A stretch of 64,000 nucleotides of DNA from positions 5,022,001 to 5,086,000 of the forward strand of contig NC_079875.1 of assembly GCF_029227915.1 (NCBI RefSeq), given 5' to 3'. The stretch comes from Hydractinia symbiolongicarpus (Eukaryota; Cnidaria; Hydrozoa; Anthoathecata; Hydractiniidae). A program made the position numbers and the translations under genes. Below are positions 6,710-44,170 of the stretch, piece by piece. The notes below the pieces were generated by a model. That model did not search any database. It was not told the DNA's origin and worked only from the letters and a program-made list of their open reading frames with translations. Numbering within the stretch: the stretch's first letter is position 1; each line of letters starts with the position of its first letter.

Positions 6710-6762
6710 ATGGAAACATTGAAGCTGTTAATTTTGTTTGTGATTATAAATTACATTGCAAC
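6710..6762 (+). CDS. A2M exon 1: start codon and signal peptide
   Basis: ATG at 6710 opens a strongly hydrophobic leader, METLKLLILFVIINYIAT, followed directly by a GTAAGT donor. It ends in phase 2, and the next exon (13931) starts with the single base needed to complete the codon. The predicted mature protein would start near EVVVRNATLC. It is separated from exon 2 by a 7.2-kb intron that holds a complete DNA transposon. The assignment rests on the leader, donor and phase, not on homology, so a different first exon is possible. Confidence 0.72.
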
Positions 6763-15700: not shown

Positions 15701-18700
15701 CATTTATGTGTTAATTACCTACATAACCACCAAAACATCAGAGTTCTACAAAGTGCATCGTTGCTTAAACTATGGCCATAATAAAGGATGTTTGTATTAT
15801 TATTATTTAGTCCAGTTTCGAGTGATTGTGGTAACTCATACTTTAAAACCGTATGAGGGGAAATTAGAAAAAGTCGTAATTGAAAATCCATCAGGTTCGA
15901 GAATGAGGCAATGGAAAGATGTTGATCTGGAGGAAGGTGTGTTTTTTACTGTGTTCCCACATAGTAGTAGTTGAGCAATGTTTGCATTATATCTTTGTGA
16001 TAAAACATTCACATTGCTGCTCTCAATTACATCCCATAAAACAATGTAAATACAAAATTAAAACATAGTACTGTAGTCACAGGCAGTGTGATTTTAAATA
16101 TAAAACAATCTCTCAAAATGACATAACACTTATATATGTCGAATTTTTAAAATGAGTACCAAGTAAAATCTACTGGAAGGATAATCATTTTAATTTGTTT
16201 CTTTAATTCATATGCAATTTACATTTTAATATACATTTATTTAACAACCCTCCATTAGTCCTGTTATCTTTATATGGAAGAGCTTGAAAAGTTGTCTAAG
16301 AGTTTGCATATTTTGTTCAAAATTCTTGATTTATACTTAGCAGTTCTGCTAATTATGCATGACATCATGAACTATAGCTTTAAGTGCTATTATAACAGTT
16401 TTGACAAGGCATATGGGTTAAAAATGTTTTTCAGTTTGACATTTGAATATTTACCATAAATTTCAATATTTTACTATAATTATGCTCAATGAAAGCAACT
16501 GCGTATTTTAGAGCTAGCTCACAATGTCATAATTTTGCATATTTAACTTAGAATTTATTAATTTAGAACCAATAAAAAAACCCAGATTACTAGAAAGCTT
16601 TTAAAGATTTTTAGTATGATTCCGACTTTTTCCTTCATGGGAAGTCTGCTTTAAGTATCTCTGCAACCTAAAGTAAATTTTTTCTAGTGGCTTTACAGCT
16701 ATAGTTTTTTTAAAAAAATGTTATTTAATACTTTAAAAAAAATGTACACAAGCAGTTAAGATTATTAAGTTAAACCATTAATGTGTCTTTCTTGTGCTGC
16801 AGATGAATATAATAAGTTGTAATTTAATTAGGTTTCGCTTCGTTGGAGTTGAAGACATCAGAAAAACCAGTCATGGGTACATGGAAAATTAAAGTTGAGC
16901 TTAAAACATATAAGAAAGAACTCAAGGTGGATGTCAAAAAATATGTTCTACCGAAGTTTCAAGTCACTGTTAACCCACCATCATTTGCATCAGAGCTTCA
17001 AAAAACTCTGGAATTTGAAGTTTGCGCTAAGTACGTTTTTCCTAAATAAGTTTTGTATGCAATGCATTAAAATGTTGATCATATTTCGGAAGTAAGTAAA
17101 TCACTTCAAAGTTGTAGCTTTTCAGTAAATATTATTCAATGTTATTCATCAGTTAATGCTTCTCTAAGTAATATTTTAAAACCAAACAGTTTTAGTAATT
17201 ACTTAGGATGCTTTTTCAGGATCAGAAAGATTTTGGCATATGTGCAACAATAGACTCACATGCTATGTTAGAACTTTTTAAATTTGGCATTTTGCATATG
17301 CCATCATTTGCACATGTTTGTGGACTTGCTGTAGGTTTAATGGGAACCCTACACTAATTGTTAAGGTATTATACAAAAATTAAATTGAAATAAAAAATTA
17401 TTGAATGTTATTGAATGACATTACATAACCTATATACATTGAGAAAAAAATTATTTTTATATGTAAATGTAGCTAGAAATAGTCAGTCACTGAAAGTTTG
17501 AATTAGTGTAGTTTTAATCTTAAAATCTGTAACGGTTTTGGGGTAATGTGTTGATCATTGTATTCTATTGCTGCCATTAACAAACGCTTTGTTATTGCTG
17601 TATTTTAGGTATTCGTATGGGAAAAACGTTTATGGAAAGATGACCACAATAGTTTGCAAAAGAAGGAGATATTATTATTATTATAGAACTCGTCAAGATG
17701 ATTCTGAGTGTGTTACTGTAGCAAAAATAGTATGTTTAGTATCATACGTTTTATGAGTTATTGCTGTAGGAGTATTCAAATAATTTAAAGGACAGCCTGG
17801 CTAGAAAAAAAACCTTACTTCAGTTAACATATACTTAACTCCTTCAAAGTTGAGTCACAATTGGTGACTAAGGGCAAGACCTGGGCAAGTGCATGTTTGG
17901 TACAATTGAGTTGCCCAATTTGAGCACTTTTTTCCAAAATTTATATAGGACCTGTCTGTCAAGGGTTAAACGAAATAACTGTTTTGCCAGGAAGTGTAAC
18001 TCCTATGTAGTGTTTTAGTATGGTTAAGAATTAAGTGTGGCTTAACAAAGTCAATAAAGAAAGATGTTATTTCACTATGTTTTCATAGGTAATAATAATT
18101 GGGTCTTACGGTGTGATTAGTTTAAGAAAAGATTATGTTATTATGCCACCCGGTATTTATTTGCCATTAAAAGTAAAGCTATTAATAAAAGTCTTTCCAA
18201 GTTTTTTTTAAATCAAAGTCAGAGTTGAGGGATATTAAACTGGGGTTACTTATAGAGTAGCCACATAAAGTTGGTGCAGAAAATAGTGAATTGACCCCTT
18301 TGGGTGTTGTTCTGTGTAGGTTTATTATATTACCAAATTTGCCCTCAATTTTAAAACAACTGTGCGTACACACGGTAAAGAAACAAAGTCAATTTTTACA
18401 TTTAATACTTTTGTTTCATGCTTTCGCAATCCTCAGTTGAATAAATTGGCTTTTATACCATAAAAACAGTATAAAGTTATCAAGGGACAATATAATGGTA
18501 TCTATAAAAAAGTGACGTCGATCCTCCTTCTAGTCCTTGATATTATTTTAAAAGAGTTTGTTGACGTGCCTGCATTTGGATATTAATTCTGATCGCGTGT
18601 TTAATAAGTTGTTATTATCGTACATTGCGATTTCTAGTTTCTCGGCTAAACAAAATTGCATTTAATCAGTTTAAAGTTAGGGACAAGTTCATTACATTGT

Positions 18701-21700
18701 CTGATTGTTTTCCATGTATTTAATGGTGCGTTTGAAAGTTCCGTGTCTTTGTATTTAGCTGTGTTGAAGGATTCTTTGTGGTTGGCATATCTTATTTTAA
18801 ACGTTGGTGCTGTTAGACCTATGTAAACCTTGAGTTCATAGTTAGGGATGTTTGAATTTATGCTTGCTTTATAAATAATGTTTTTTGTTAAACAATTATT
18901 TTCAACTGGGGATTGTTCCTTTTTAATACAATTACAATTTCTATCCATTACTGTATCGTTGTTGTTGATGATTTTGTTGTTGTTTCATGTTTTTTGTGCA
19001 GCTGCAAGAAACTTTTACGTTGTTACGATTAAATATTTTGTGGAGCTTGTTTTGTTTCGGGAAATGTTTGTCTATGAGAAGCAAGAACAACTTTTCGATT
19101 TTTGTAGATACGTTTACATTATAAGGAGGATTAAACCATAATATATTTCTTTTTCTTTTCTCATTTTCTGCAAAATTTGAAACAGCTTTCTGTCGTTCTT
19201 GGTATTGCAGTTTAACATCGTGCCTTCTTATAAATTGGGGTGACTGCGTTAAATATTTGTTCATTTGAAGAATGTTCGGATAACCGCTGCTCAATAGTGA
19301 TTGGGATTTGTTTGATGACATAAGGTGGGTGGTTGGATTGAGTACGGATGTACTGAATGATTTTGTCAGGTTTGCTCTATGGTTTAAAGGTTCCATTCTC
19401 GAGATTTAGCGTGATGTCTAAGAAATTCACAATTTTCTTATTCCATTCAATAACGATTTTTAAACCGCATTTTTGGAATAATGCTTGTATTTTCTTTTTG
19501 ATGCATTCCATTGCGGGTCCGCTGGTGTCTTTAAATGCAGCAAGACCATCATCACTGCATATGTTATTTTTATATTATTGTATTTTTAGGAATGACATCA
19601 TAAGTGTATGATGTTATTCGTGGAGATAGTAATAATATGTATAAAAAAGACACAAAAAAAACATGGGGACTTGAAGTTTTAAAATTACCAGGTTATAATG
19701 AAAGAGAAATCCAAAACACATTTTTAAAATTTACCACATTCAGCTAATGGTGGCCTTAGTAAAAAACGGTTGGTTTATAAGCGCATAGAAAAGCGCGTTT
19801 TAGCAATTTTTAGTACTTGAAATGCAATAAATGCCATTTTTCTGCATCCCAAAACTTTTTCAACATGATAAACCCAAACACCTAAAAAACCAACGCTGCA
19901 ATGGCAATGACATTATTTTCTACACAAACTTTATGGGCTTTATGCAAAGTACTATGATATGCTAACTATGTAAATGTCTAGTAATTTAAGAATTAAAACT
20001 TAAAAAGGTTTATTCCTGAAAATAAAAATTATTTTGAAAAAAATACAACTCTGCAAAGTTTTTTTATTAGTAAAATAACAGTCATGTTAGATATTCCTTT
20101 CTACTTTTCGACTACTGAATGCTTTCACAATTAGAAAAAATTAGTTTTCTTTTGTCCTCTCCTTGTTTTTATGATATTGTGGTTGGCTTAGTTGTATACT
20201 GGTCTTATTGTTTTTTTTGTTAATGCTTTAGATTGATGGATGTGTTACAGTTTTAATCGATACTAAAGAATTCCCTCCACCATCTATGAGCTATTACAAC
20301 TATCAATATGTATTTGATGCAAAGGTTAAGGAAAAAGCAACAGAAGTCACGTTGAATAGTACACAGATCACAAAACAAGTTCACACTAAAGAAGTTGAAT
20401 TGTCTTTTCAAGCAACCAAAGTGTTTAAACCGGGTTTTCCTTTCACTGTCAAGGTCAGTGCAATTTTTAAAATTATGTTAAAACTTTAACATGAGTGCCC
20501 TGCACATTTAAATGTTCAAAATATGCCAAAATGAGTTGACCAAAATAATACAGTCTAAATGTCAAAAAGTTCTATCTGTATAGTCGAAAAGTTCCTAAGT
20601 TAAAGTTCTTTTTATTATTTTAAACCCAATGAGGTTTTGTATAATTAATATTTAGCAAAATTTTTAATAAAATTTTTAATAAAAGTTAATCACTCATGAC
20701 TTTTGCGAAATAGAATTTTTAAATTACCTAAAGGTTTTCGCTAGACCAGAAAAAAGACCACTGCAACTATTTTGTAAGGAAAAACAACACATATACTTTC
20801 CCTGTTTTGACAGTTATGTGATAAATATCTTTGTTCTTTATTACTTGTTGTTATTTATTCAATACTTGTAATAATTTTTAGCTATTTGCAAAATATCCAG
20901 ATGGCAAGCCAATTGAGAAAGATCTGAAGGTTAAAGTATTAGCAGGAACGTCAGGTTATTATTCCGGTAATCTCTATGCTGAAAACATAACAATTTCCAA
21001 TGGAATGACTATAATAAAGTTACCTCCGATTCCATTTAATGCACAGGAAGTGTCAGTCAGGGTATGGAAATAGTCAGTTTTTATTTTATTTTTGCTGTTG
21101 AAAAAATGGTATTTTCAATGTGTAACAAACTTGAAATATTATAAAAGAGATACTTAATTTGCATAATTCTATATTGTCAGAAATTTATTAAGGAAACACA
21201 TTAAGAAAAATTGGGAAATTTAACAAAAATAAATCCCAATTTGTAAAATTTTGAGTTTTGTGACTTAAAAATGAATTGTTTTTAAAGACCCTTCTATTCT
21301 TCATTAATGTCAAACTAGAATAAAAAAAGCAGTTAAATTATGTTAGAAAATTTTAGTTTTAGTAAAAAAACATACCTCTTGTATAGCTTGAAATGCTCAT
21401 GTGCTCTTGTCAAACAGTTTATGGTTAGATATTCCACCAGCTTCCTAGATCTTCGGCCTCAATGCAATGTATGTAACAGCAAAATAGCATTTAATTATTC
21501 TGATGTCTGACTTTACTATGAGCAATTAAAGATTATATTGACTCCTCAAAGTAAAAATTAACACATCGGCGTATTATTATAAAGGTTATGTTTTTAGGCC
21601 ACATATGAACGGGAGAAAATTTATCCAACAGAAAGAAAATATCGCAGACAATCGTATGGTTCCATATACATTAAACCTTGGTATTCACCAACTCACAGCT

Positions 21701-24700
21701 ATTTACATATTGAAAAACAGAAGCAGGCTATGCAGGTTAGTCATAAATATTTTATATGAAATACACGTGAGATGAGATACTTAGTGAGTTTTATTTTATT
21801 AATTGTAACAGGTTTCAATATGAACAAAAATTAGTTGATCCTTATGCTGTTAGTGAAGAAAAAAACACACAGTGCATCCAGTTTCCTTCGAAATAATTTT
21901 TAGTTAAAATGTGTTGTTAATGTTGTTTTTTATTCAGAATGGAACCACTGCAAATGTGACAGTTAAATACACATCTGTTGACGGCAAAGAAGTTGAGAGA
22001 AACATTTACTATTCCGTAAGTAACTTCTCAGCAAGATAAATAACAACAAAAATTGTGGTTTAATTTTAAAGAAAAGTCTATAATATTTTTGCCTGTTATA
22101 TTTAAAAAACCTTTTCTAGCTAATGTGTGCTGGCAATGTTGCTTTGTCTGGTAGCGTAAAACGCACTTTTAAAGCTGCCATAGCAGAAAACCCAACGGAC
22201 CCACCAACAACAACGACAACCACAACAACAACAACACTGAAACCCATTTTGGATAAAAATGGCACTAGAATTTTCCAAATCACACCTCGACCAATTTATT
22301 GGTGGGAAAGACCACCCGTTACCAGACCACCACTTCCATACCAATTCTCAGTTGGTAGCTTTAAGTTTTCTTTTAATGTGACAAAAAACATGTTTCCTTC
22401 CTGTCGCATGATTGTATATTACATTCGTGGTGAAGAAGTGGTTGCTGATGATACTGAAATTGATGTTGTGGATGAATTTGAAAATAAAGTAAGTAAAAGC
22501 ATATCGAAGATAAAAGTACTTGTCTAGAGAAAACTTTTATCGCCAGAAAAAAAGATTTTTACTGCATTGTGGAATTACATTATTTCAGGAAATTAATTTT
22601 GAAATTCTGTATTAACTACATGTTATTAAAAATGATATTATTTTTAATAAATACTTGAGGTCTCATATTTTGCAACAATTTTACTGGCTCACAGGGACAA
22701 TTTTACTCCTGTATTCGTTCCCTGATATGGTTTAATTGATAGATTTGCATGTGACTTTTATTTATTGAAAGTTTTGTTTTAAAACCAGAAAATTTTATGT
22801 GTTAGAAAAATAAATATTAATTTTGATATTTATATTTACAGGTTTCAATAAAGTTTGATAAATCAGAAGTGAAACCAGGAAATAAAGTCAAGCTAACTGT
22901 AAAAGGTTTTCCTAAATCACGAATTGCTATTGCTGCTGTTGACAAAAGTATACATTTCTTAGCTAAGGGGAACGACATAAAACCAAAAGACGTATGTAGT
23001 TGTATTCTTAGTATTAAGAAGTTTTTATTTAATTATGAAAAACTCTATTGTTAAGTTTGGGACTGGTTGGATCCATATCCAATGTTTAGAGCTTTCCTGA
23101 AGTATGTCAATTTTTTTTTTGTAATTGTGCTAGTGAGATAGTGATTGCAAAGGATTGTCAAACATTTTATGCTTTAAAAAGAAGAAATGGGAAGACCTAA
23201 CAATATGGTTTTGATTTTCTCTGGTGTACATAATATTTTAATGTTTTAAGAGTAATTTAATTGTATTGATTTGTTAAAAAGTCATACTCTTTACTGTGTG
23301 TTGACCACACATATATATAGTGTGAGTGAATTTGTTTTTGTTTTTACAGCTTTTTAATATTCGAAACACTTTGGATATAACACCAGGATGGGTTAATAAC
23401 TATGGTCGTTGTCCAAGACGTTGGGGTAGAAGAAAAAGAAGTATTGCTCCTGGCTGGTTCTGGCAAGACTATGTTGATTCTGAGAAGGCATTTTCTGTAA
23501 GTAATCTTCTTAAGTATATTATTTTTCTGTTTTTATTGGTAAAATGATCTTCATATGATTCTTTTTTCATGATAATGAGTCGATTTTGAAGTAGTTAAAG
23601 ATATTTTTCATAGGTCAGGGTCATAATATTTTAAACTGAGTTGTCAGCTAAGTAGAAATGTATTATTTGTTTTTTTCTATATTTGTATCGGTAAGTCAAG
23701 AAAATTTGCATTTTAGTTATAAAAAAGTCGACTAAGTGTAAATGGAAATTGGCTGGCCGGCCTGATCATCACCCTTTATTTTATGATTGTGTAGTAAAAT
23801 TTTAAACAATGTCGCTGATTTAAGGTACACTACAATTTCTATCAATGTGATGATTTACCATGAAAAAAGAATCACATGTCACAGTGCATGACAATCTCAT
23901 GGTACCTTTTTCTCACTCGTAATTTACACACCAGAGAATATTTTTGCCACTGCAAATTTCAAATTTTGATATTACATTTATATTTCACTCTATCATGGGT
24001 TACGTATTTTTTTTAACACCTATCAAGCACAAACACGTATAAACATTTGTAAGATTAGTAAAACCTATCTTTTCTTGAAAGTATCTTCTGCTAACTTAAC
24101 TGATTTTTTGTTCTACCATGGTGGTACTGTTAAGTTGATTTTGTGTTAAGCATAGTTACCTGTATTAAAATAAGCTTGCACATTGTCTTTTTTGTTCCAT
24201 AATTAGCAGGTTTTTTATTTTCTTGTATTGTCCTTTTAAAAAAATTCTTTCTGTATTTTTCCAATATTGAAAAAACATTTTTTTTTAATAATGATAAGAA
24301 ATAACTAATTCAAAATTTTGTATGAATTTTATATAAGTTTTCCTTGCACAGAACTTTCCAGCAAAGTCAAGAATATGATTGAATGCATTTATTTCGAACC
24401 ACTGCCCCAGAAAATTACTTCGCAAAATGAGCTACAAATCATTAAAATTTTGCGGGTGAATAAAATGTTATTGTTTTGTTGTTTGCGTTACAAACAAAAT
24501 CAACTTAACGGAGCCTTACACGAGTAGTTTAAATTCTAAAAACTTTATAGGAATAATTTAGGTTTAAAAACAAAAAACGATAAGTTTGATCATATTTTTA
24601 TTTATCTTATAATGCTGTTTCACCTTCATTGTTAACTTACTGTCTGAGGAACTCTATTAGTAGGTTTAATCGAAGTGACCAATGTTATAGCCAATTTCTG

Positions 24701-27700
24701 TATAATGTGTCTGCCATGTTATTGTACCAGCTGGACATAACTATGCAATATATGACTAACTCATCCACATCTTTAAGATTTTTATAATAGAATGAAGAAA
24801 AAGAGATAACAGTGATAGTCGATTGCATTGATTTTCTGGATTGTTTGTCATAATAAACTAAACGTTTCTTTAACTGAGACAAGAGGAAGCGTACCAAGAA
24901 ATGCTGCCTTAACCTTTCCTCAGTTGAATAAGAACCTTTGAGATAATAGAGCTTATTAAAAAAAAATTTATTGAATTATTGGTTCGTATTTCTGGGTACA
25001 CTACTTCCAGGAAAGATGGATTATATTAAAAGTGTCAAATCTCTAAAATGCTCTATAAGCAAGTAGACATTTGAATAAGAACGAGATAAGTCACAAGATG
25101 GTAGAATTAATAAAATACAAGCGCTTTTTAAAAAATTTTGCAAACACATAGACTTGAATCATTTTTAAAAACTAAACATTTCTAGGCACAGCAGCACTGT
25201 ATGTAAATATTTGTAAGCAAAAGAATGCAAGCAATCTCCGTCACATGCTTTCATTCTGGTTTTTGTTAGGCTGCTAGAGGTGAATGATTTTTAACGTAGA
25301 TATTCTAGAAAGATGGTGGCTGTTATGGTCATGTTTTATATATTTTTGGTAATTCTTTTTGTATAATAAAGGTGGAAATTATTTAAAAGTTTAAAAATGT
25401 GTTTCGGTAAAACAATAGCAAGTTTTTGTTTACCTGTCTCTCTTCTATGTAGAACCTGGGAGCCATTGTCTTGTCAAGTTTACGTATTGACTCAAGACCA
25501 TGTCCTCACACTGGCTTTCCAGTTCAAACAAGGCTCTTTGGTGGTACTAGAAAACGTGCTAAAGGGGGTAATTTGATTCCTTTTAAGCTAATGTTTTATA
25601 AGCTAATGTTTTAAGAGTGACTCAGCATGATTTACTTTAACAATGACAGGCATAACCAGGCATAGTACAGGTGCGATAAAAATCCCAAAAATCATCGGAC
25701 AGTAAAATGAAGACTTGTTGGAAGAAGTCAAATTACGGTTAAAAACTTTTCTACTGTGGCTTTTCACTGATATATGTTCTAAATCCTGACTAATGTACAC
25801 CATATTTTAAAATCAAAAGCCGCCTTCACTTGAAAATATAGTTTGGTATGGGCTTGTCCAAAGCGTACCACCTGCAATATTTAACCCCTGATTACAGAAT
25901 TTAATGAAAGTGGAAACTTCATAATTGTTAAAACAAAAAAAATAAAAAAAAATAAAAAAAATGGATATTTCGCTTTTAAAGATTATATAAGTTTAAATTT
26001 CTCTCTCGAAGAGCAATTTTCCAAAGTAAGGTGAGTAGGAAATTCTACTCATATATATGGAGCATCTACCTCTAAATTTGTCTTATGCCCCCTAACTCTA
26101 GAAAGCTCCACCACCTTACTGGCTCACTAAAAAAGTACTAAGAAGATGTAAAGTGAAAAGCAATGTTGATTTATATGGTCAATGTTACTAAACTATAGAA
26201 CCTGTATCAAGGGGCTTAAAATGTTCAAAAGTCACAACAGACCTATTGTTGAACACTAAAATATTTTTTGTTAAACTTTGTTTAATATGACAGTTACGTT
26301 TATATGAAAATGGATAGTTTTGCATACAGATGATAGTGTGTTTCGGAAGATGAATGTTTTTTATTTCGCCCTTTTTTAAATTTTAATTCTATTTTCGCAA
26401 ACTGAACTAGTGCTCTGCAGAATGCTACTGTTAATAAAGATAAAGCTGCTTGGAAATATAATGCTTTTACAGAGGACAAAGAAAGATAACATGGGGATTG
26501 AAATTCTTTTATTTTAAGGCATTACATTTTAATTAAAGTCTTTTTCCGTAAGCGTTGGAAAGTTCTGGCAGAGGCTCAGAATTGCCTATTTCCTAACAAA
26601 CTGGAATATAACCTGTATTTTAATGGTTGCTGTCTGTCTGTAAGTAAAATATGGTATCTACGAATTCAGATAAGGGAATTTCTGACGGGTAAATTTGGAT
26701 AAGTATAAAAACTCGTATCATAGTTGTGCAATATAGCAGGAAAGAGTTAGAAAACAAAACAAAAGTTGGTATATGTTTTAATCCAGCTGGCACACCAACT
26801 TTATGTGACCTTTAATATTTAATATACTAATCTGTTTAACTAATAGAATGTTGGTGTTCTAACTCTAACCAGTTTGAGAACTGATGTACGACCCTGTGGA
26901 GGAATGATAATACTGAGGAAATATTACTCTCTTGCCAAAACAGTTATTACCATAAATTCTAATTGTATCCTATGTTAGCATACTAAAAACCTGTTTTCAT
27001 CAGCAAATGATTATAATGTAAATGCTCAAACTACAACCTCTCTGGAAAATAAGTGTTCCGGCTATATCGTCAAGTCTAGACAGGTTTTTGACACCAATTA
27101 GACTAGTAGTATATCGTTGCAATGTTGTAGTCAGAGTGTTCACAACGTTAAAAGTTTCATAAAAATAGCAAAAATTAAAATACAAATTAAAGTTAGAGGT
27201 TATAGTTTGTGGTTGTATTTTGTACTTATGGATGGCCATGCTTTCACTAATAACCCATATCAAGACAAGAATTTATTCTTTGGTAGATTACTGTTGGATT
27301 ATTTCAGCGGAATAAGGTGTAGCTAAGCACAATCATAAATGTTCTGTTAAGTGCGGTGACCGCACTTAACAGAACGTCATGAATTGGAGATAGACCTGGT
27401 CTATCTCCAATTTATTTACACCGTGCTAATGTTTTAGACTTTTAAGTCAATAACGTTGATGGCAACAACTATGATGGCAGTAAACTATGTGATTTGGCAA
27501 CAGGTCGTAATACACCAGGAGTAATTCTTTCCATTTTTTCTGCGATATTTTACAAAGATGACTGATATTTAGTACACTACTGCTAAGGTTTCTTGAATTA
27601 TTTTCATGGCTTTGTAGTATGTCTTTTATATGCGATTGTTGGAACATGCAGTGCTTCTTGGTTTTTTTGACCAGAAGAGAATTCAAAATTGGATTTGTGC

Positions 27701-30700
27701 TCTAAGAGTTAATAAATTTTCAAATCATTGACAAATGTCTTAGTAATCAGTTTCTGTTGACAGGAACAAAGCTAGCCTCTTCATTATTTTTATATAAGAA
27801 AATATAGCCCTTCATTTTGTCAAATATGCATTCTAATTCAAATGAAATTTCTGTTCTTGTTAACCTTCTTCTACATTAATATCAAAATTAATTTTCTGGA
27901 ATTTTTTTTTGTGTTCAGCCATGAATTCTCAGAGCAATCTCAAATAATTTGTAATACATGTAAACTGTGAAATTTTCTTCCTCTAAAAGTTACCACAATA
28001 AAGTACTTTCTAAATAGTTTATGTATGTTCAGTGCTTGATTGATGTTATTAGTGTTTTGACTTCTCAAAGTTAGTGTCTTCTTTTGCAATTACCATAAAA
28101 AAAAAACAGCGTCTGATATCAGCTAGTGTCGAACCAACATGAACCATCTGTTGGGTACCACAAAAAGAGATACAATGTCTGCTATTGCCAGTAATGTTTT
28201 TTCTGAAACTCAACTAGAACTGTAGTTGTGGTCTTTTTTGTAAGACAATGTATGTGGGTTGCTTCTGTTGTCATTGACACCTTGATTTTTGCATGTTAGA
28301 ATGTTGGTGTTACTTTCTTGTCAAGTTTAAACATTGATGTTAGACCGTGCAAAGACACGCCACGTGTTGGGTACCTGTTAGAAGAAAATGCAGGTAATGT
28401 ATGAAAGGTACATATTTAAAAGAGGCAATTTTGTTAAACCCCGACAAAGGTTCAGTGAATGAGTGAAAATTTAAAAATATTTTTAGTCAATTATACATAA
28501 ATTCTTATAAATAATTGAAAGAAAGAGATGACTGAACATCATATTTTGAAAGTTTCTTTTAAATATGGTCTGATAGTGACGAGTCTTTTTAGTATTTTGG
28601 TGAACCGTTTACGTACTTTTAAGTGTGTTTTAAACTAAAAACAAGGTCTATACTAGTCTATTGTTCATGGTATTTGCAGTTTCACATTTTTATTGTGCCG
28701 TAATGGCCACAATTCCTTCAAATTTTGTGGATAACTCAGACGACAAACTTCTAGTATGTTTACCCATATGAACCAGTAAATCTGGCCACCATTATCATCA
28801 AAACGTAGAAAGTGGTACAACAATTAGATATAGTGTGTGTCAGATAAAAACTGATCTGTTGCATTTAGTCAAATATGCCTAGGTAGCAATATACTATTAA
28901 CAATGTGGGGGAAGGCTATGATTTTCAATTAAAATTGTCAGTCGAATACGATTTACTAAAACTATAGGCTTGAGTTAAATTTTAAAGAAATAAAGAAAGA
29001 TCTGATCCCCAAGTCCTTAGAGAAAAGCATTAGCTTACATGTAAGTATATACAGAGATATAGAAAGTCCTAATCCTCTTCAGCTTAAAGAGAATCGACCG
29101 TAGATAAAGGTATATTAATTCGAAATTTACTACCTTATTAATTGAGATTGTAATGAACCCCAGAAATCTCAAAATACTATTTCGGAATAGGACGTTTAAA
29201 GGAGCAGACAGTACACAGTATTTCCGAAAGAATTGATCAATAATATTGTGGATACAATAAGTGCAATCTTGATCGGGGTCTTCAGAGGTATCTAATTATT
29301 CAATTTTTTATGGACAACGCATTCGCTTGAGTTGACGGAGAAGCTTTTTAGTAACAAAATAGTAGAAAGACAGCTTGTACAAAGTGATTAAATTTTTGCT
29401 AAATATATTTTTTTCAAGGAAATGGAATAAAGTTAAATTATTTTCTGTAAACCTATAAAATAATTTAGAAATTACTTTCAGTATTTTTATCTATGTTAGA
29501 TCAATTTTTTTTTGTTTGGGGGGGGGGGGGGGGGGGGGTTATTTGTGTCCAACACATTTGATCTACTTTACATGTTGGTTTGCTAGCATTCTTTGTTTTG
29601 CATTCTCCTTTTCCTTCTTCTCCCTCATTTTTGTCTCCATTTTCCACTTGTATTTTTCATTGCCCTTTTATTTACTTAGAACTTCAGTTATTCTTGTTCC
29701 TTAAGATTAGATTACAAGAAAATGTTTCTTTTATAGGGATGTAAAGTAACCATTAACACGCCTTATCATTCTTAATTTTTGACTCTGAAGAAGTACGCCT
29801 ACTGGCGTTGGGGTAAGGCCAAAACATCAACACACCACGTATTGGTTTTAGCTTAACTTTGAGATATCAAAATATAAAAGGGTATTAAGTAACTGGCACT
29901 TCTTAAGTTCAACATGTCGAGGTAGCAGGTGCCAGAAATATTGTCTACGTAAAACAATGGTTATTTTAGGATTAAATGTTTCGGTTTAATTCTTGTGTTT
30001 TCTTTGAATGGGCTACCTAACGCTGTTGTTTTTTACTTTAGTGACTTTCACAAAAGTCGAGCCCATGGCGGTGAAAACAAAAAATGGTTATTTTTTTGGC
30101 ATGTATGTAATTTACATACTCGAACATATGTTATGTTTTCATCCAGAATGAGTCTTGATGAAATATTTCTTTGTAATATACTTTTCGAAAAAAATATTGA
30201 ACCAGCGAGCAAAGTGCGCTGGTCTGTTCATTGCGCAAAACGCGTTTGCCGGATTTAATATGTGCGCGGGATATACGCAATGTGAGGATTTTAACCGGTT
30301 CGTAGCCCCTTCAACAAAGCTACAAAAAAATAATAAATATAAAATTTTAAAAAAAATATAGCATACTTTTTGTTTGTGTTGTGTTTATTGTTAAACTTTT
30401 TTATATAAAAATTAGCTTAGTGCTATCATCAACACGATTTCAATCAGTCAACAATCCAATTATGAAATCAGGCAAACTGATCTTTGCTGTCCAAGTCAAT
30501 ATAATTGTTATGAAAATAAATTGATGAATAGATATGTAAAAACTGGTTTGTTTAACATAAGAAAGTGTTAAAAAATTGTGCTTTTGCAACGATAAATGTT
30601 CCTGCGGAAGTAAATAACAAATGGTTTATGTATGTTTGTCGCTTGATGTGTTGTGTTAACTTTACTTCATGTATATCTGAATATTGAATTGTCAGTTACT

Positions 30701-33700
30701 TTTTTGCGATAAAAAAAACCCAACTTAACGAATGTGGAACCAACATAAGCCATCTTTGATGACCACAAAGCTTAATGAAAGTGTCTGTTATTACCAACGA
30801 AACTTTTCTCGGCACCTTAGTGGTCATCTCGGCACCTTAGTGGTCGTTTTGTTTATGTACAGTAATGTGCTTGGGTTATTATTGTCTTAGACGTTGACAC
30901 CTTCATTTTCATGTTAGAATGTTGGTGTTACATTTTTGTCAAGTTTAAACATTGATGTCAGGCCATGCAAAGAATTACCACTTATTGAATATTCACGTGC
31001 AGTAGACGATCTGAGTCCAGATGGTGGAACGGAAGGTATATTTTTGACAAAGTCAATTGAAATCTCTATAAAGCATATCCACTACAAAGCAATTTGCTAT
31101 TGTTTTCCATTTTAAGTGCATTTTTCATCATGAAAATCTGTGTATTTGTTGTAGTAGCATAGCATTAAATAAAGTTTTATGTTTTTTCATAATATAACTT
31201 ATAGCTTATCTAACGATGTTAATGAGTGAAAATAAAGTGAAATCTTACTGCTTTGAAAAATAGATCTAAGTTACGCATGAGCTAATGATCCTCCAGTATT
31301 GCATAATAATCGATTTGTAGTAATGTACTCTTCGTGTGAAATTCGGTGACAGTTTTCAAATTTCAAGTAGAAGATCTCGGAAGTCAGCATTTTGGTATGT
31401 TCATCCAAACAGTTTATTTGACTAAAGTCTGAAGAAGTTAATCCAGTGTGTATGTCAACGTAAAGTGGAGGCGTGTTTTATTCTGTTGTGGGTGGTTAAA
31501 CGTAAGAAATTTTACATCATAGATTGTATTACTTCAACAAAGGAGAATTACTGCTTTATTAAATCCTTTTGAATAATGAAGATTCGGCCGTTGAGTTTTT
31601 ATTCACCTAAACACAATAGACTTAGATTTCGAAGAGATTGCTATTGATCTTTATTCTTTCTTTATTACCGTTGCAGTGCTTAGCTAGCTAGTGTGCAGGG
31701 TTGCTTGTACTTTAAATGTGTGTTCTTCTTTTCTTTCAAGTGTCAATCATAGCTAAAAACTTATCTTAAAAACTTTAATAAGAAATACGACACTGTTGTT
31801 CTTAAGCTCCCTTGTTTATAATTCAAGAAGAATTTACAGCCAGTATTCTTATATGATTTCAATTCAATTTTCAATTCGCATATGGAGTGTTATTGCAAGC
31901 ATACCATGAATTACTTGTCAGGATGGATGTTGTGTTAGATCTTGTTCACTATTCCGATCAACTGCATTGTTTAATGTCAGAAACATCGCATAAATGAAAT
32001 TTTGCGATGAAGTGTTTTTTTATAAGATCGGAAAATTTGAATCACGATTTTTTCTGAAGGTTCAATTTTTGAGATTTTAATTTCAAAGTTTGCTTGGTTT
32101 GCTTAAACCAATTTTCTATTTTTGTCAGGGGGCCAAAAATCAATTTACATTGTCTGCGAAATAATTGCTGAATAAATGCCCTGGTTTATCTATCTCTTGG
32201 CCTTTTAATAATTATTGATTATCAAAATTATTGATTATAAAATTATTAAATAAATATAACATACTTTTCGTTTTAAAAAGTGTGTTTATTTTTAAACCGT
32301 TTCATTTAAAAATAGCTTAATGTCATCAAATAAGACAAATCTGGTCTTCGTTGTCATGATCAACTACGTTGTTATAAAGATAGAGATGGTTTACTTAACA
32401 TTAAAAAGTTTTAAAAACTTTATATTAAATTATTTTATTTAACCACAATTTATATAAAAGTTTATTCATACAAAAGTAAATACAAATGGTTTATGCATGT
32501 TTGTTGCTTGATGTGTTCTTGTTATCTTGACTTGAACTTTCCCTAAAACTTGAATTGTTAGTGACATTGTTTGTGTCTATGGTATCAAGGAATGTCAAAA
32601 CCAACATAAAACCAACACTGGTTATGCAAAACCTGATATAATAAACGCAACTTTTTGTTCTTGCCAGTGATACTACTGGCACTTGACATAGTCATAGCGA
32701 GAATAGGCTGGATTATTGTCACTGTTGTTGTTGTTGTTATTGTCGTTGTCATTGTCATTGACACCTTGATTTTCGCTGTTAGAATGTTGGTGTTACTTTC
32801 TTGTCAAGTTTCAACGTTGATGTTAGACCGTGCAAAGACACACCATATGTTGCATTTTCGTTAAAAAGAATAAATGATGGAATAGAAGGTATATTTTTAA
32901 CCCTATTCGGTCCGGGTTTTTTCGAACATATTATGACTGGGGCCGGAATAACTTTTCATAGGCTTGTCCAAATTGAATCAAACTTAGCACACTTATAGTA
33001 CTTCACAAAAGGAACAAAATGACAGCAATAAATTTTTGCTTGCGTCAGCACATTTTCTGTGATGTCATCAGAAGCCTAAAATTTCTCCAAAATGCCCCTA
33101 TCTGCTTAAAATTCAATTACTTTAGTTCTAGAGCGATTTTTTACATTCTGTTTAAAGTTTCAGAAAGCTAAATAAAAGTTATTTAACATAGCTAAATAAA
33201 AGTTATTTAACATATTTTCCGGTTTTTACACAGATCGCATAATACACTTCTCAAAAATTGCCCGGAAATCCGGTTTTCCGATTTTAAGGTAAAATCCAAC
33301 ACTTAAAATGATTCTTCTTGATGAAACAAAGTTGTGTTGTAAGTTTCAAGTTCTAATGATAATCCTAACAAAAGTTATTGTATTTTCCTGATTATAAGTG
33401 TTTCATAGAGGTTTTTTAGGGGTAGTTTCAATTAATAGTCAATATCAAAGCCTCTGAACGGTAAGGAACCTAAAAATTTGGCATGCAGGAGTCTAATTGA
33501 TAAATATTGAAACTCAGTAAGTATCGTAGCCATAGTTAATAAAAAACATTAGGGGTGGATAGACGGTAATAGAACAGCAGTATAACTTTGTTTCATAGTT
33601 ATTTTCAGTTTATTGTTTAGCTAGTTCTCTCATTTATAATCTTGTGGCAAAGTTGCTACTTGTTGTGCATTAGTTGACTGTGACATACCATTGCAAATTT

Positions 33701-36700
33701 GTGAATCCGTTCCCAATAAGTTATTCGGGTAATGCTAATTGTTGCTGACGTCAGTAAGACTGTTTCCACTAAATTTTGGGACCTTCGTGCCCTCTCCTCT
33801 TGGATTTTTTCGTTGCGCAGGATTGCTACAGAATGCCTTCAGCAAATTTTAAACGTTGTCCACCTATATGTACAGCCTGTGAAGTATTGACCATTTAACC
33901 CCAATACTTTAAAATTAAAGAAAAAACTGCATTTGTTCAATATTTTGACACGATTGTTGTGTATATTTTTCTAACATAGAAAGGAGCGATACTATTTTAT
34001 AGCTTTTGCACACGAACCTTTAAACTGGTGATTTATCTGAAATTCTTTTTTCTTTTTTTTCTTCTCGTGTATTTGGCTTTGATTTAATTGACTTATAGTT
34101 GCTACTTTAGGAATTCCTGGACCTGTAGGTGCAACACGTAAAAATAAGAAGTTAAATAGCTCCAACAATCAGAAGAAAAACGCACGACCAAGGACAGAAT
34201 TTCCTGAGACATGGCTTTGGACCGAAGAGAAACTGTACGTAAGAAACTAAGGATATAGCAAAAATTGCTTCAAAATAGTTGCTTGAATAAATTAAAAAGT
34301 CAGTATTTTGACGATTTTTTCACTTTAGATCGAAAGACGGTGTTCATGTTTTTGACGTCAAAGTTCCCGACACTATAACCAGTTGGTATGCTAGCGGATT
34401 TGCTGTGTCGAAACAAGCAGGTTTGGGTGTAGCTAGCCCAACAGAACTTCGCGCGTTTCAGCCATTTTTTATTTCGTTGGTGCTACCTTACTCTGTTGTA
34501 CGCGGTGAAGATGTCACTGTCCCGGCGGCTGTGTTCAGTTACCTGGAAAATGCATGCATAACGGTAAGGAATTTAATGGGGTAATTTTATTCATAGGAAG
34601 TTGTCTGGTAGAACAGCCATTTCACTGGATTATTGTTGAATTTGACGACCATTGGTGCTTTTTTACGCAAACACTGTTATTCTATCTATAAATGCCACTA
34701 AAATTTGTGTAAACTTGGCAAGGGTATACTTTTCAAATTTAAATCTGTTGACGTGGTTTTATTTTTAAAAACTTATTCTTTGATAAAAAGTTTCTTTGTT
34801 TACTGTTAAATTAATAGAAACTATTAATTATAAAAACCCTTTTTTTTCAATGCAATTCTCTCAAAATTTTCACTTTTATACTACTTCCAAAAGGTTCTGG
34901 TAACAGGTTTTCGATAAACCCCTATCTTTTAATAAAAACTCTCTAATTGTAGTCAGTTTTTTCCCACTTATTTCTAGATCTAAAATGACCACAAAAATTT
35001 GAATTTTCCAGCTTTTTTTCAAATGGGCAATGGAAATTTTATAAACTAGTCAACCAACTTCTTTTAATTTCTGCGCCTATTTTTTCTTCTTATTTTTCTA
35101 TTTGAGCATTTTCTCTGCTTTTGAAGTTAAACATTATTTAAAATTACCGTTATAATCTCATAAATATTGAATTAAAAAATAAGCAAAAAATGAAAATGGC
35201 CAAAAAAAATAAATGTCACTTAGCAAACAATTTCGTCAATTTTTGCCTTTCTGTTATACTAATCACTGATGAGAATTTTTTCACTCTATATAATGAAATA
35301 GAAAGTTATGTTACATCGGTTTGGTTTTTTGATGCTTCTTTTATATTTCGTTGTTTTTTTCAAGGTGAGAGTATCTCTGTCATATTCTCCAGAGAACTAT
35401 CGAATAATCGCTGGACCGTCAGCCAAAACTTGTATTTGTGGTGGGCGCACCGCCACTGTGTTGTTCCGCGTTCAACCACGGAAACTTGGTCGCATTCCAA
35501 TTCGAGTCTCTGCCGAGACATTAGACGAGAACGCATGCGCGGTTAACAAACCTTTCAACTCAAAAATCACGGCAGCCGATAGCTTAATTAAAAAGTTATT
35601 AGTTGAACCTGAAGGTGTCAAGGAGGATCATACGCAGTCGAGTTTCTTTTGCCCAAAAGACACGTCGGGAACGTATAACGCAGACTTTACACTTCAAGTG
35701 CCAAGTAACGTCGTACCGGGATCTGTGTTCGCAAAGGTTACAGCCATGGGTGATTTAATGGGTTCGAGTTTGTCGAATATAGACGAGTTGTTGGCGATGC
35801 CGTACGGATGTGGCGAGCAAAACATGTTGAAATTCGCACCGAATATTTTCATTATGAATTATTTGAATAATACAAACCAAGTATCTGGCGAGATAAAAAC
35901 TAAAGCACTCGACTACATGAGATCAGGTATGCTCTCACCTAGGGGTGGATTATGTCTAGTTGTAGCATTACAGTATTGCTACGACGCCTTTGTGGTAGGG
36001 TTTTTTGTTTTCTTAAAAGAGTTTTCTGTGGTTTTTCCTAAACTTTGAGTAAAAATATTTGCTGAAAATTGCCTCTTTTTTCAACCTCTAAGTTACATAA
36101 ATTAAATTATGTGTATTATTAGTAGCGAAATTTAATACACCATGATGTAAAGCTACATTGCCTCGTCGATAAATAAGTCAATAACACATTATTTTTAAGG
36201 CTATCAAAGAGAATTGACATATAAACATGGTGAAAAGTTCGATAGCAACTTTGGTTCATATAGTGCGTTTGGTCATCGAGACAAAAATGGTAGCACGTGG
36301 TAAGTTAACCTTAGTACTTTTCGATGTCGTAAATTAAATCGGTATATTTTTTTGCGCCGATTTCGCGTTAATTTCGCGCGTTTTTCGCGCATTTTCAGAT
36401 GTCTATGTTGATATGATATGTTGATATGCCCTCTCATTCTTAATATCTTCATTTTGGACTTAGTGAACATAAAATGAAGTTAAACAAACGAGCCTGGAAA
36501 CAAAGTTAGATTAATTTGTGAAATTCGGTGCGAAGAAACAGAATTTGAGAATTATCTGATCATAATTTTTGTCTTTTCTACAACAGGTTGACGGCTTTCG
36601 TTCTAAAATCATATGCCCAAGCCCGTCCTTGGATTGACGTTGATCCAACTGAAATTGATGATCCGAAGAATTGGTTGCTTAATATCCAATCAAAAGACGG

Positions 36701-39700
36701 TTGTTTCCCCACAGTTGGCTCATTGCACAATAAGGCTATGAAAGGTGGCGTCAAGACGCCTGCTACGTTAACAGCATATGTTTTGATTTCCTTGTTGGAA
36801 GCTGATCTTGGTGCGAACGATCAGCGCGCAGTGAAAGCAGCATCATGTGTTTCCAACACTCTGGATGAAATCAAAGATTCTTACTCGCTTTCTATCATCG
36901 CGTATATGTTTGCAAAGATGAAAGATACAGCGAGTTATAATAAAGTCATGAAGAGATTAGATGCTATGGCAATAAAGGAAGGTTCGAGTTCTTTTTATTC
37001 TGAAATTTAGCAGACGTATAAATTTTCTCCTAACATCAACAGAAATTACTTATTGATTTTTGAGGAGCAATGATATTGTGCACAATGACTGTATCAAATT
37101 CATCGTCCGCGAAATTAAATTCGCGCGAAAGTTAACCATTTAAGATAAGTTTTTAACTCGAAAACACCTTCCTCTAAGATGATAGTTAATCATGATCATT
37201 TGAAAAAAACTATTTCAGCATGACCTGTAATGGGTTAATAATATACATTATGCTCTAATTTTGTAAATTAAGTCAAATTTCCCTAATTAGTCGGTTTTAA
37301 TTTTTGTGTTTGAAAATTGCTTTTTTATCGGAAAATTATTTGGCTTATCTTGTTATAATTTATTCTGTTAAAACACCAAAAAAAACCTCACATCATTATT
37401 TTTTCATAGATGGTATGATTCGTTGGGAGGAACCGAAAGAAAAAGAGGATAGTAAAAAACAAACATTTTGGTATTATGCTGCTCGTTCCACCGACATCGA
37501 ACAAACTGCGTATGCTTTGATTGCTAAGCTTACCTTAACTGGCAAGAAAACAACTTCCGATAATATTCCGATTGTAAAGTGGCTTTCCAAACAAAGAAAC
37601 GGACTCGGAGGATGGTCATCAACTCAGGTAAACTTTTTGCGGTTTTTAGATTTTCTGTTGTTTGGGCCGGTGCTACATGTTCTGATATTACGAATGAAAC
37701 TCCATTTACAGTCATTGGGATAACACTTAGATTTCGCCTTCGTTGTGTGTTGGCTGTAGTAGTAACATGATTAAAATTAGATTAGCTTAATTAATTGTTG
37801 TAGAGGTTGGTTGCTGTAGAAGAAGCATGCAAAATTAATGTTTGCGAATTTGCCTTTTGAAATTTAAATCGCAAATTTTTTTTTAGGCAGAGAAGGACAT
37901 TTACAATGTTTATTACGCATTTTGCCTTGTCTATGGCCCGTTTGTTTGTAATTGTACTGTGAATTCAATATAAAATTTAATTTAGATATGAATATAAATA
38001 AAACTAGCTATTCGAGGTTACTTTGTCGCATTCCTAATTTTCTCAATTTTCAAGACTTTTTCTCAATTGTCAAGACTGGGAATATATATGTGTTTAATTT
38101 AAAGTTACGTAACTTCCGGCAACTTCGCTTTAAAAAACAGCCAATTTTTCTGAGCATTTTTGTTTTTGTAAACATTTTTATGTTTTATGTTGTATGTGAT
38201 TTTCGTTTTAAATATTATAAAAACATTTTAGGACACGGTTCTCGCCATGCAAGCGTTAGCAGAGTTCGCAGAAATCACATACGGAACAGCTGCAGATATG
38301 TCCGTTTTGATTCGGGCTGGTCCTGATTTTGAACACACATTTAAAGTTAACAAAGAGAATGCTTTAGTCTTGCAAAGAGTTGAGGTAGGTCAAAGGTTGC
38401 TAGACTAAAGTTTTGTCTCTTTTGTACAACAAATGAATTTTAGAACTGAAAAGCACACTGTCGGATGCAAAATTTATTTCTTAAAATTTTCTTTTCACAA
38501 AGGATGTTCCTGTTCCAAACACTGTAAAACTGACTGCTACAGGAGAGGGGTGTGCGCTTGTACAGGTAATATTTTACATACATTTAATTTTTTTTTCTAA
38601 ATCCGAGTCAAAATGCCTTCCATAAAAATCAATCAGAATTCTGATTATAATCAGCTTATCCAATTAAAATGCTTTTAGGTCAATATCAGATATAACGTAA
38701 AAGAAGTGAAAGCAAAGCCATCTTTCGAAGTCACTCATTCCATCAAAACAATTCAGCACAAGCTAACCAAGCGACAGTCATGTCGTTCACAAATGTTGAA
38801 AGTTTGCGCACGATGGCTCAGAAAAGGTGAATCCAACATGGCGCTGGTGGATGTGCAGATGATTTCGGGATTCGAAGCGAATTCTAAATCATTCGAGAAG
38901 GTAGACAAATATATTAAACGGTTCTTTGAGCAAGATTACCCACCTAACTTTCTCATTTTAATCCTGCCGTTAATAGTTTTTTAACATACCAGTTCGTTTT
39001 TTCTGTTGTATAAGCTGTGCACTATCCATCCGAGCCGAAGTTGTGTGACCATTGCTATGATTTCTGCTCAGCGCAGCGTTTGAAATAAAGCTTTCTTAGC
39101 TGGCCGATCCTGTTTGACCTAATTAGTCTATTCTTGGGACATGTTTTAGCAACCGAAATTACGTGAAAAACATTATGCGTAAAAGTTAAGCTGCAAGAAA
39201 TATACTTCTACATTTCTCTCTGTTTGAAAATTAGTACGAATGAATATCTCGCTGTGTGGTACACAGTAATGTACATAATTCGAACGAGGAAGCCATATTC
39301 TGACTGCAATATTAGCTAATGCATTATTTCTAATTTTGTTCTATATTTTCTTTACCTGTTCTAGGCGCTTCAAAATACGAAGGGATTGAAAGACATCGAA
39401 ATAAAAGGAAAAGGCGTCATGTTCTACTTTAACAGGGTATGTCTTTACTGTGTAATAATAATTTTTAGCACAAATTTTGGTGTCTTTTAAAACGAATGCA
39501 TATGCAGCTAACACTGGACAAAAAAACATATGGCAGTTTCACTTAAAAGCGACATTTTGTTTTACCAGGAGAACGCATATTTCTTCAGAGACATAACATT
39601 TACTTACAAGCAACAACATTATCTCTCTACATACCGTATACACACTTTCTGCTTCCCATTGAGCGAATGTTGTGTAATTGTACGTTTTTTAAAAAAATAA

Positions 39701-41260: not shown

Positions 41261-43695
41261 AAGAAAAAACCCTTTTTTGTTCATGTTTTTTTAATAATTT
41301 TTGTAATATTTTTTTACTATGACAAACAGGTTCTTGTTGAGTTAAAGTTTTGTTTTGTTTTTTGTGCTCACTTGGTTTGATCACTATCTCGTTGACAAAA
41401 TGTGATTATATCTGAAGAAAAAGTTGGCTTAGGCTTATTAACTAACGATACTAATGGTTGGTGTCTGAGCCAAATACATACAAGGAAAACTTTTTCACAT
41501 CGATATACAATTGCTAAACTTTTGAAAACGTCAGACCATTTTCACCATAAAACTTTTTGACATTTTACCAGTGATAAAAATCCACCATGGTCGGGTCGTT
41601 TGATACACTTTATTGGTATAAAGTTTGGCGCGTATAATTTTTAATGCTTTTTCGCGCAAAATTCTAAAATTGCACCAAAATTTCTACCATTATTACGCGA
41701 AAATAGTATGTGCGCCAAAAATAGTACGCGCGAAATCGCGATTTTCTTCTTCTAATTCTTATCTAGTGAAAATCGTTCATATTTTAATATCAAGAGTTGG
41801 TATAGTGCGGTATGTGCAAACGTGCGCGTAGGGAAAGTAGGGTGTGCCGAAATTAGTACACGCCAAATTTTCTAACAATGAGATAGCTATTTTATGTAAG
41901 ACCTTGTATCTGACAAGATCAACTTAAATCTGCTATAATTCAAAAGTCTGGTGCTTTTTTGTGTAAGTTGCAGGAGTAGAGTACTGATGCCATGTTGACA
42001 AGAATCAGTTACAATCGTAGTGGACTTCTGTGGTGCAATAAGTTATCAAATTCATCATTCCTTGGAAAGGTTCCATTTCGGTGGGACTGGGGTCAGTGGT
42101 GCTACAATCCCGGACTTAATTTATTGGAAAAGTCGAATTTCATAGTTCGACCCACAAGCAGTTAACACACTGTTTCTACAAAAGACAAAGGCATTACGAA
42201 CACACCCCGTTACCCCGAATCTTAGCACCTTAGCGGGCCGTCGTGTAGATTGTTTCGAAATGCGGACATGGCAGAAACTGCCAGTAGTGCATTTTCGACG
42301 CTATCTACCTGGCCTACACATCTCCCAAAGCGAAGCTTTTGCAGCCCGCTGGCTGCAGAGTTTTGAAAAGACGATTCCCTTCGGCCAGTTCGAGAAATAG
42401 CCGAAAATCGGCCTTTTCCAATAATATTATGTCCAGGATTGTGGTAGCTGTATCGTTCTTTCTTTATACTTGTATTTATTCCCGCAGCAGAAAAGATGAA
42501 ACTAAAAAGTTCTACTGGTGCCCAACTCGCATTTTTTAAGATTCAGTTATCCGTATGTCACGAAAGATATATGTATGGTATAGTCAGCTATATTCAAGCA
42601 ACCTAGGATGTCTCTCAAAACTGTATTAAAAAATAGAGAATCGAATCTATCTCAATTCACTATTGTTCTTTTAAATTCATTTACACAGTTATGATTGTCA
42701 TATTTTCACCATGTCCACATTGTTTTACATCATCATAACCAGAGACTTAATTCTTCTACAGAGTTTGTTGAAATTGACTTTGTGGAGACACAAGGTATGA
42801 TGATTTTCTACTTGTGTCTGGGTGTAGACCCTTCAGTAAGCTACTACTGCCTCCTGGCACATTATTGGCATATTTTGTCAAAACTCATGCTACTAAAATC
42901 ACGTATTTCAACATTTTACAATAGTAAAACAAAAACGTATGAGTGTTACAATTGTATTCTCAATTTAAATAATTACACTTACACCAATAAATTTACAATA
43001 TTTATGCAACAAATATAGACACCATGATGGAGTTCAACTTTAAGATTTTTTAATACTAAACCCCTGAATAAAACAGAGGAGACTAAATATCTGCAAGATG
43101 TACACAAGACTTTTGTTAATATATTGACACTTTTCTAGAATTTTCTTTCAAAAATGCCTAAAAAGAGGCTTTAATGCACCTGCGTAGAAGAATAATCCGA
43201 AATATATGATACGGTTCATTCTAAGTTCTTATAGTATTGATGTCGACCTTATCCTTACCTAAAAATATCAAATCAGATTTTCTGAAAGCCAGACGGTTAC
43301 GCGACTATTTGGGTGGTATATAACAACATACGGACTTTTCAGGAAAAAACTGAACTTATGTTAAAACTATCCCTGCAATAAACGTTGGTATGTCACGGAG
43401 ACTTAATATTTTTTAATGCATTTACAAGTTATGACTATAAATAACTCAAGGTAATTAATTTTTGCAAGAATTTTAGCAAGTCCTGATATTACGCCAATTT
43501 CGCAAAAAAAGAATTTGCTACAATTTTGTTCCTCAATCTATACCATTTTTATGTGGCAGACATTAAATAAGGACTTTTAAAGTCGAAATTCACATGTGAA
43601 TTATATGCAGTTTAGGTAAACCAGAAGAAAAAAAATAGCGTAAATTGTGTTTAAAAAGAAAAAAAATCATACTTTTGGTATACTTGACAGAAAAA

Positions 43696-43925
43696 AATTC
43701 ATGATGGTGATGTCGCTGATGATGGTGATGTCACTGATGATGGTGATGTCACTGATGATGGTGACGTCACTGATGGTGGTGATGTCATTGATGATGGTGA
43801 TGTCAGTGATGATGGAGATGTCACTGATGATAGAGACGTCACTGATGATGGAGATGTCACTGATGATGGAGATGTCACTGATAATAGAGACGTCACTGAT
43901 GATGGTGATGTTAGTGATGGTGATG
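43696..43925 (+). repeat. 18-bp minisatellite with CRE-like sites
   Basis: About 12 copies of GATGATGGTGATGTCACT. Some copies read TGACGTCA, the exact CREB/ATF palindrome; others read TGATGTCA. Both strands stay open in several frames only because of the repeat. Confidence 0.9.
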
Positions 43926-43984
43926 ACGGTGATCATGGTGATCATGTTAGGGATGATAGAGATGTTGGAAATCATGTTGTTGCA

Positions 43985-44170
43985 GATGATAGTGATGTTA
44001 GTGAACATGGCATTTGAAGATGATAGTGATTTTAGTGAACATGGCATTTGAAGATGATGGTGATGTTAGTGAACATGGCATTTGAAGATGATAGTGATTT
44101 TAGTGAACATGGCATTTGAAGATGATGGTGATGTTAGTGAACATGGTATTTGAAGACGATGGTGATGTTA
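43985..44170 (+). repeat. 34-bp tandem repeat
   Basis: Five copies: GTGAACATGG at 44001, 44035, 44069, 44103 and 44137, period exactly 34, with alternating GATGGTGATGTT / GATAGTGATTTT versions. It directly follows the 18-bp array and shares GATGATGGTGATG, so it probably arose from it. Confidence 0.9.

Follow-up and report, generated by a model that had tools for sequence, protein, structure and literature searches.

The alpha-2-macroglobulin (A2M) gene considered here lies on the plus strand of a 64,000-nucleotide stretch of the hydrozoan Hydractinia symbiolongicarpus (contig NC_079875.1 of assembly GCF_029227915.1, positions 5,022,001 to 5,086,000, hereafter the window), and it appears to vary the first half of its bait region by mutually exclusive splicing, a reading to which we assign a probability of roughly 0.8. 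When a protease cuts the bait of an A2M, the thioester is activated and the protease is entrapped. In the Hydractinia gene, exon 15 is present in tandem as four intact alternatives (15a, 15c, 15d and 15e) and a dead copy, 15b. The spliceosome would pick one of these alternatives, with the reading frame enforcing the choice at the protein level. Each alternative encodes a 17-residue piece of one kind, closing in a conserved Cys, and after it a first bait half that is its own. The secreted trap would then differ in the very stretch where a protease cut triggers thioester activation and entrapment, and the gene can probably make four such traps.

Structure of the exon 15 array

The four intact alternatives sit between exon 14, which ends at 23496, and exon 16, which begins at 34111. 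Each is preceded by AG, ends in a G followed directly by GT, has a length of 1 mod 3 and occupies one and the same phase 0/1 slot. A preliminary description of this DNA, made from its letters, had given these exon positions (23496; 25453, 28300, 30918 and 32783; 34111) together with a phase 0 start after AG and a phase 1 end, and all of them proved correct for all four exons. Every alternative encodes a 17-residue framework closing in Cys and then a tail of its own, 21, 14, 22 and 18 residues long in 15a, 15c, 15d and 15e, respectively, in agreement with the range of 14-22 residues described earlier. The tails had also been called unrelated, which is true for the most part, although KDTP.V is common to the 15c and 15e tails and K..P recurs in that of 15d.

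A framework pattern derived from these same exons had five matches in the six frames of the window, corresponding to the four intact exons and 15b, and tblastn of the framework, run with composition correction off, gave E values of 1e-8 to 1e-3 within the array (self-matches included), the next best being 0.49. Given how often stops occur in the local introns, an absence of stops has a probability of about 0.0045 over the 75 tail codons and 3e-5 over the 143 codons of framework plus tail, figures in which the exon copies, being homologous, are not independent. Exons 15c and 15e are 93% identical across 102 nt around the exon start, which points to at least one recent duplication. Duplication during assembly is an unlikely origin of the copies, as the flanks of 15c, 15d and 15e, compared over 1200 bases upstream and 900 downstream, resemble one another solely in blocks that are short and have diverged (76-93%).

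Inclusion of a single exon 15 gives a full protein for 4/4 choices, and the inclusion of 0, 2, 3 or 4 bait exons leads to an early stop, 5-51 residues past exon 14, in all 12 combinations. Because one exon alone restores the frame, a full protein can hold just one exon 15 alternative, and the earlier claim to that effect is thus upheld. The arrangement of tandem homologous exons of equal phase, flanked by constitutive exons, is that of a mutually exclusive cluster, and we infer that a regulated one-of-four choice would be made in the RNA as well.

Gene model and protein identity

The model carrying 15d comprises 27 exons spanning 6710..41261, and its translation equals a database protein of H. 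symbiolongicarpus, P0001 ("alpha-2-macroglobulin-like protein 1 isoform X4"), at all 1540 residues. Choosing 15a, 15c or 15e instead yields 1539, 1532 and 1536 residues with an identical C-terminal end, and the proteins from the four choices are identical in their first 735 and last 760 residues. Pfam families occur in the order MG1, MG2, MG3, MG4, A2M_BRD, A2M, TED_complement and A2M_recep, all exceeding the cut-off. A C345C/NTR or anaphylatoxin domain would mark a thioester protein as C3-like, and both are absent among the 8 Pfam families matched. In addition, the thioester motif GCGEQN is intact and invariant across 7 aligned proteins, a variable bait stretch is present ahead of FPETW, as in A2Ms, and of the solved structures A2ML1 (7q1y) and A2M (6tav) match best. 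By these features the gene is classed as an invertebrate alpha-2-macroglobulin, within the A2M subfamily of thioester proteins, and the domain order and thioester motif bear out the identity first proposed for it. The principal features are collected in Table 1.

Table 1. Exons and other elements of the A2M gene discussed in the text; positions are those of the window.
Feature	Position	Strand	Basis
Exon 1 (protein start, METLKLLILFVIINYIA..)	6710..6762	+	Spliced model equals P0001
Exon 2	13931..13993	+	Spliced model
Exon 13, constitutive in the model	22842..22991	+	Spliced model
Exon 14, constitutive in the model, phase 0 end	23350..23496	+	Spliced model
Bait exon 15a, 115 nt, tail PHTGFPVQTRLFGGTRKRAKG	25453..25567	+	Framework pattern, tblastn, phases
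Relic bait exon 15b (end nominal), retains framework NVGVLTLTSLRTDVRPC	26847..26964	+	Pattern, tblastn, donor score
Bait exon 15c, 94 nt, tail KDTPRVGYLLEENA	28300..28393	+	Framework pattern, tblastn, phases
Bait exon 15d, 118 nt, tail KELPLIEYSRAVDDLSPDGGTE, present in isoform X4	30918..31035	+	Equals P0001
Bait exon 15e, 106 nt, tail KDTPYVAFSLKRINDGIE	32783..32888	+	Framework pattern, tblastn, phases
Candidate RNA docking site (weak lead)	33545..33574	+	Predicted pairing
Exon 16, common second bait half (GIPGPVGATRKNKKLNSSNNQKKNARPRTE), then FPETWLW	34111..34234	+	Model and alignment
Exon 18, contains thioester motif	35365..35926	+	Spliced model
Thioester motif GCGEQN	35806..35823	+	Sequence; 7-protein alignment
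Exon 27, C-terminal end and stop	41208..41261	+	Spliced model

Upstream of the bait exon, exon 14 encodes RRKR followed by S (23428..23439, plus strand), which we take to be a furin-like site. Of the 8 other proteins in the alignment, 3 carry the pattern R-x-[KR]-R at the matching position, namely Clytia P0006 (RRKRS), P0008 (RRRRS) and P0003 (RKKRD); Hydra proteins read KKKS at this position, and P0007 and P0009 are without the site. Cleavage there might split the trap into two chains ahead of its encounter with a protease.

Variability and composition of the bait

Alignment with relatives confirms that the alternative exons are located at the bait. The Cys that closes the framework is C752 of P0001 and is invariant across 7 aligned A2M-type proteins. 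Measured against its seven nearest relatives (P0002-P0008; P0009 is in the alignment but uncounted), P0001 shows 0-26% identity in the tail, 41-71% in the framework and 63-70% over the 150 residues from FPETW onward. On the usual limits of the bait, the variable stretch before FPETW lies roughly opposite that of the solved A2M 6tav, with the Cys offset by about 2 residues. Three further A2M-type proteins of H. symbiolongicarpus (P0017, P0019 and P0029), whose contig has the same length as that of P0001 (42572105), have a diverged framework and are without RPC.

In composition, the tails of 15a, 15c, 15d and 15e contain 5, 2, 2 and 3 K/R and 0, 3, 6 and 3 D/E, respectively, with a net charge spanning +5 to -4. 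The exon 16 half of the bait, which is in all isoforms, counts 8 K/R and one D/E among its 30 residues. Since these 8 K/R are shared, trypsin-like proteases should find sites in every isoform and be able to cut all four; the effect of the tails is more likely a gain or loss of cleavage sites than a switch of the trap. Four distinct cleavage preferences had been proposed, and the labels given to them fit the composition of the tails, but the basic second half common to all isoforms speaks against so complete a separation. We infer that the tails would alter the range of proteases that trigger the trap, or the rate at which they do so.

Divergence among the copies

Within the framework, 15c and 15d differ by 5 synonymous and 0 replacement changes, and 15d and 15e by 5 synonymous and 2 replacement changes. 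Comparisons of 15a with the others give synonymous rates (S) of 0.72-1.01 and replacement rates (N) of 0.21-0.27, and all pairs with 15a or 15b give S of 0.68-1.01 and N of 0.21-0.27, suggesting that the framework is mostly conserved. For the tails, the N/S rates are 0.42/0.46 (15c-15d), 0.29/0.38 (15c-15e) and 0.40/0.27 (15d-15e). The tails could be either free or driven, near-equal N and S being consistent with relaxed constraint and with diversifying selection alike. Positive selection on the tails is not claimed, because N and S are about equal and the tails comprise only 14-22 codons.

Splicing signals and the relic copy

Splice sites were scored with small matrices built on this gene alone. 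The donors of the four intact exons are ordinary, with scores of 4.8-7.3 against a constitutive median of 6.6; those of 15a, 15c, 15d and 15e outscore 22, 39, 57 and 57% of 23 constitutive donors, respectively. The corresponding acceptors outscore just 0, 21, 17 and 12% of 24 constitutive acceptors. Weak acceptors are common among regulated exons.

Exon 15b was rejected as a fifth usable exon because 3 of the 5 phase-1 GTs among its first 170 nt (one within the final codon of the framework, two past it) would create TGA at the junction with exon 16, the other 2 fall within the framework and would truncate it, and the nominal donor, scoring -1.45, is lower than all 23 constitutive donors. Immediately past the nominal end of 15b, positions 26965-26974 read GTATCCTATG, which we take to resemble the U12-type donor consensus; its use as a donor would produce a stop codon at the junction.

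Alternative explanations

Several observations weigh against a switch among four working baits. Variability is not confined to the tails, since the common exon 16 half has only 16-33% identity to relatives and the linker preceding the framework 28-58%, and most basic residues of the bait lie in the common half. The acceptor of 15a scores under all 24 constitutive acceptors. Use of 15d, the sole alternative met in a protein record, rests on one NCBI gene model (isoform X4), and among the best 120 of 3694 matches no close record was seen beyond P0001, the next best having 62% identity. A 464-residue query aimed at shorter records with other baits returned 84 proteins whose E values were no worse than 1e-40, the best at 51% identity, and no record of 15a, 15c or 15e was seen, although clustering at 90% identity would mask one. 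One copy in the array, 15b, is already dead, and the framework pair 15c-15e has 0 synonymous and 2 replacement changes, with no sign of constraint. It could be proposed that only 15d, perhaps with 15a, is in use and that the others are recent duplicates drifting as 15b has done, for which the near-identity of 15c and 15e around the exon start can also be adduced. This seems unlikely to us, given that all four exons retain ordinary donors, fitting phases and frames free of stops and that the framework changes between 15c and 15d are all synonymous. Moreover, the P0001 cluster has 12 member sequences on one contig, and this together with the label "X4" suggests several annotated isoforms, at least four of them numbered. 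A different objection concerns function, namely that the tails are unselected for protease choice, the bait needing merely to be exposed and cuttable, and that the array serves dose or tissue control or represents neutral variety. The about equal N and S of the tails fit this as readily as they fit diversification, and the exon 16 half endows every isoform with 8 K/R; the range of tail net charge argues in the other direction, as does the tail N of 0.40 between 15d and 15e, compared with differences of 20 and 24% in two alignable intron blocks that were detected by similarity. We regard this explanation as possible but doubtful.

Mutually exclusive choice might also be supplemented by double or zero inclusion, used as a switch to frameshifted, decay-prone transcripts. 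The early stop in all 12 non-single combinations would suit such a switch, and 15b, with its TGA-forming GTs, could act as a poison exon; the weakness of the nominal 15b donor tells against this role, no such transcript has been seen, and the proposal appears very unlikely. As to how one alternative would be selected, Dscam-like competing RNA pairing could set the choice, with a candidate site at 33545-33574 binding, at any one time, a selector upstream of one exon. For this 30-nt segment and the 50 nt that precede each of 15a, 15c, 15d and 15e, pairing is predicted at -16.9 to -17.8 kcal/mol, compared with only -10.9 kcal/mol for the stretch upstream of 15b. Pairing of -16.9 kcal/mol or stronger is found for 0/24 constitutive upstream regions, yet for 7% of 400 random local 50-mers. 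The four-exon value was reached by 0/60 and, in another run, by 9/600 shuffled intron pairs, and 2% of constitutive upstream region pairs share a segment as strong as the one 15a and 15c share. On the other side, pairing for 15c-15e alone was matched by 7/60 shuffles, and the bases that pair differ between 15a and 15c/15e. The scan covered two introns of the array, its first and its last, and since the comparison was made on two flanks and two subsets, the predicted docking site is only a weak lead. On the downstream side of the exons, docking-site pairing showed no signal, being equalled in 24 and in 50 of 60 shuffles, and Rfam returned 0 matches at the gathering score. A docking mechanism of this kind is, in our estimation, improbable.

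Relation to known systems

Ticks, insects and molluscs already furnish examples of alternative bait exons, and the cnidarian position is the fresh part of the present case. A close parallel is BgTEP2 of the snail Biomphalaria glabrata, in which 12 mutually exclusive exons are spread across 30 kb (PMC7016707). Like the Hydractinia gene, it has tandem exons at a highly variable bait-like region, each exon being in part conserved and in part variable; it is a snail TEP in which transcripts with one exon each have been seen. CfTEP of Chlamys farreri likewise has mutually exclusive exons at a bait-like region (six, giving seven challenge-responsive isoforms; PMC7016707), but belongs to a bivalve, has more exons and comes with expression data. 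The tick alpha-macroglobulins IrAM and TAM, with seven and four bait variants, respectively (PMC5438962), are A2Ms with spliced bait variants as in Hydractinia, though from an arthropod, and exon 5 of Drosophila Tep2, with five isoforms (PMC7016707), is an alternative bait-region exon in an insect TEP. Bait-region splice forms of A2Ms are also described for BgA2M of Biomphalaria, with three forms, and for A2M-2 of the shrimp Fenneropenaeus, with six variants (PMC7016707); the BgA2M forms use one or two exons and so are not strictly exclusive, unlike what the frame dictates in Hydractinia.

Among cnidarians, the Hydra vulgaris proteins P0002, P0004 and P0005 have 61-62% identity over the searched region and share the framework type (..VLSSL.IDVRPC), with a different tail past the same Cys. 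In these Hydra sequences, the variety observed sits in separate proteins. No cnidarian bait-exon case was found among the open-access titles and abstracts listed, a search that a case in body text or in a subscription journal would escape. A fuller scenario, in which exclusive bait-exon switching works in a cnidarian, whether inherited from before Bilateria or evolved independently of molluscs and arthropods, with one docking RNA making the choice, is a long way from likely. If true, it would mean that an animal without adaptive immunity had already broadened its protease traps through splicing. The Hydractinia case itself would place bait-exon switching outside Bilateria, in a colonial hydroid that is also a laboratory cnidarian. 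With four natural baits set in a trap that does not otherwise vary, the role of bait sequence could be tested directly, and ancestral versus convergent origin across cnidarians, molluscs and arthropods would become testable.

Other features of the window

Two open frames lie in intron 1, one of 540 residues at 10467-12089 on the minus strand, containing a DDE_1 domain (PF03184), and one of 222 residues at 12645-13313 on the plus strand, containing a HIRAN domain (PF08797). These frames are flanked by tandem repeats of about 42 bp, with a unit containing GGGAACTAATTTTGGCGG, at 10214-10390 and 13424-13623, the right-hand repeat being followed by inverted-looking copies; the repeats are perhaps the ends of one mobile element. 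Downstream of the gene, two adjoining minisatellites with units of 18 and 34 bp, open in several frames, occupy 43701-44170, and a 32-bp tandem repeat of ten copies, 94% matching, lies at 60593-60915.

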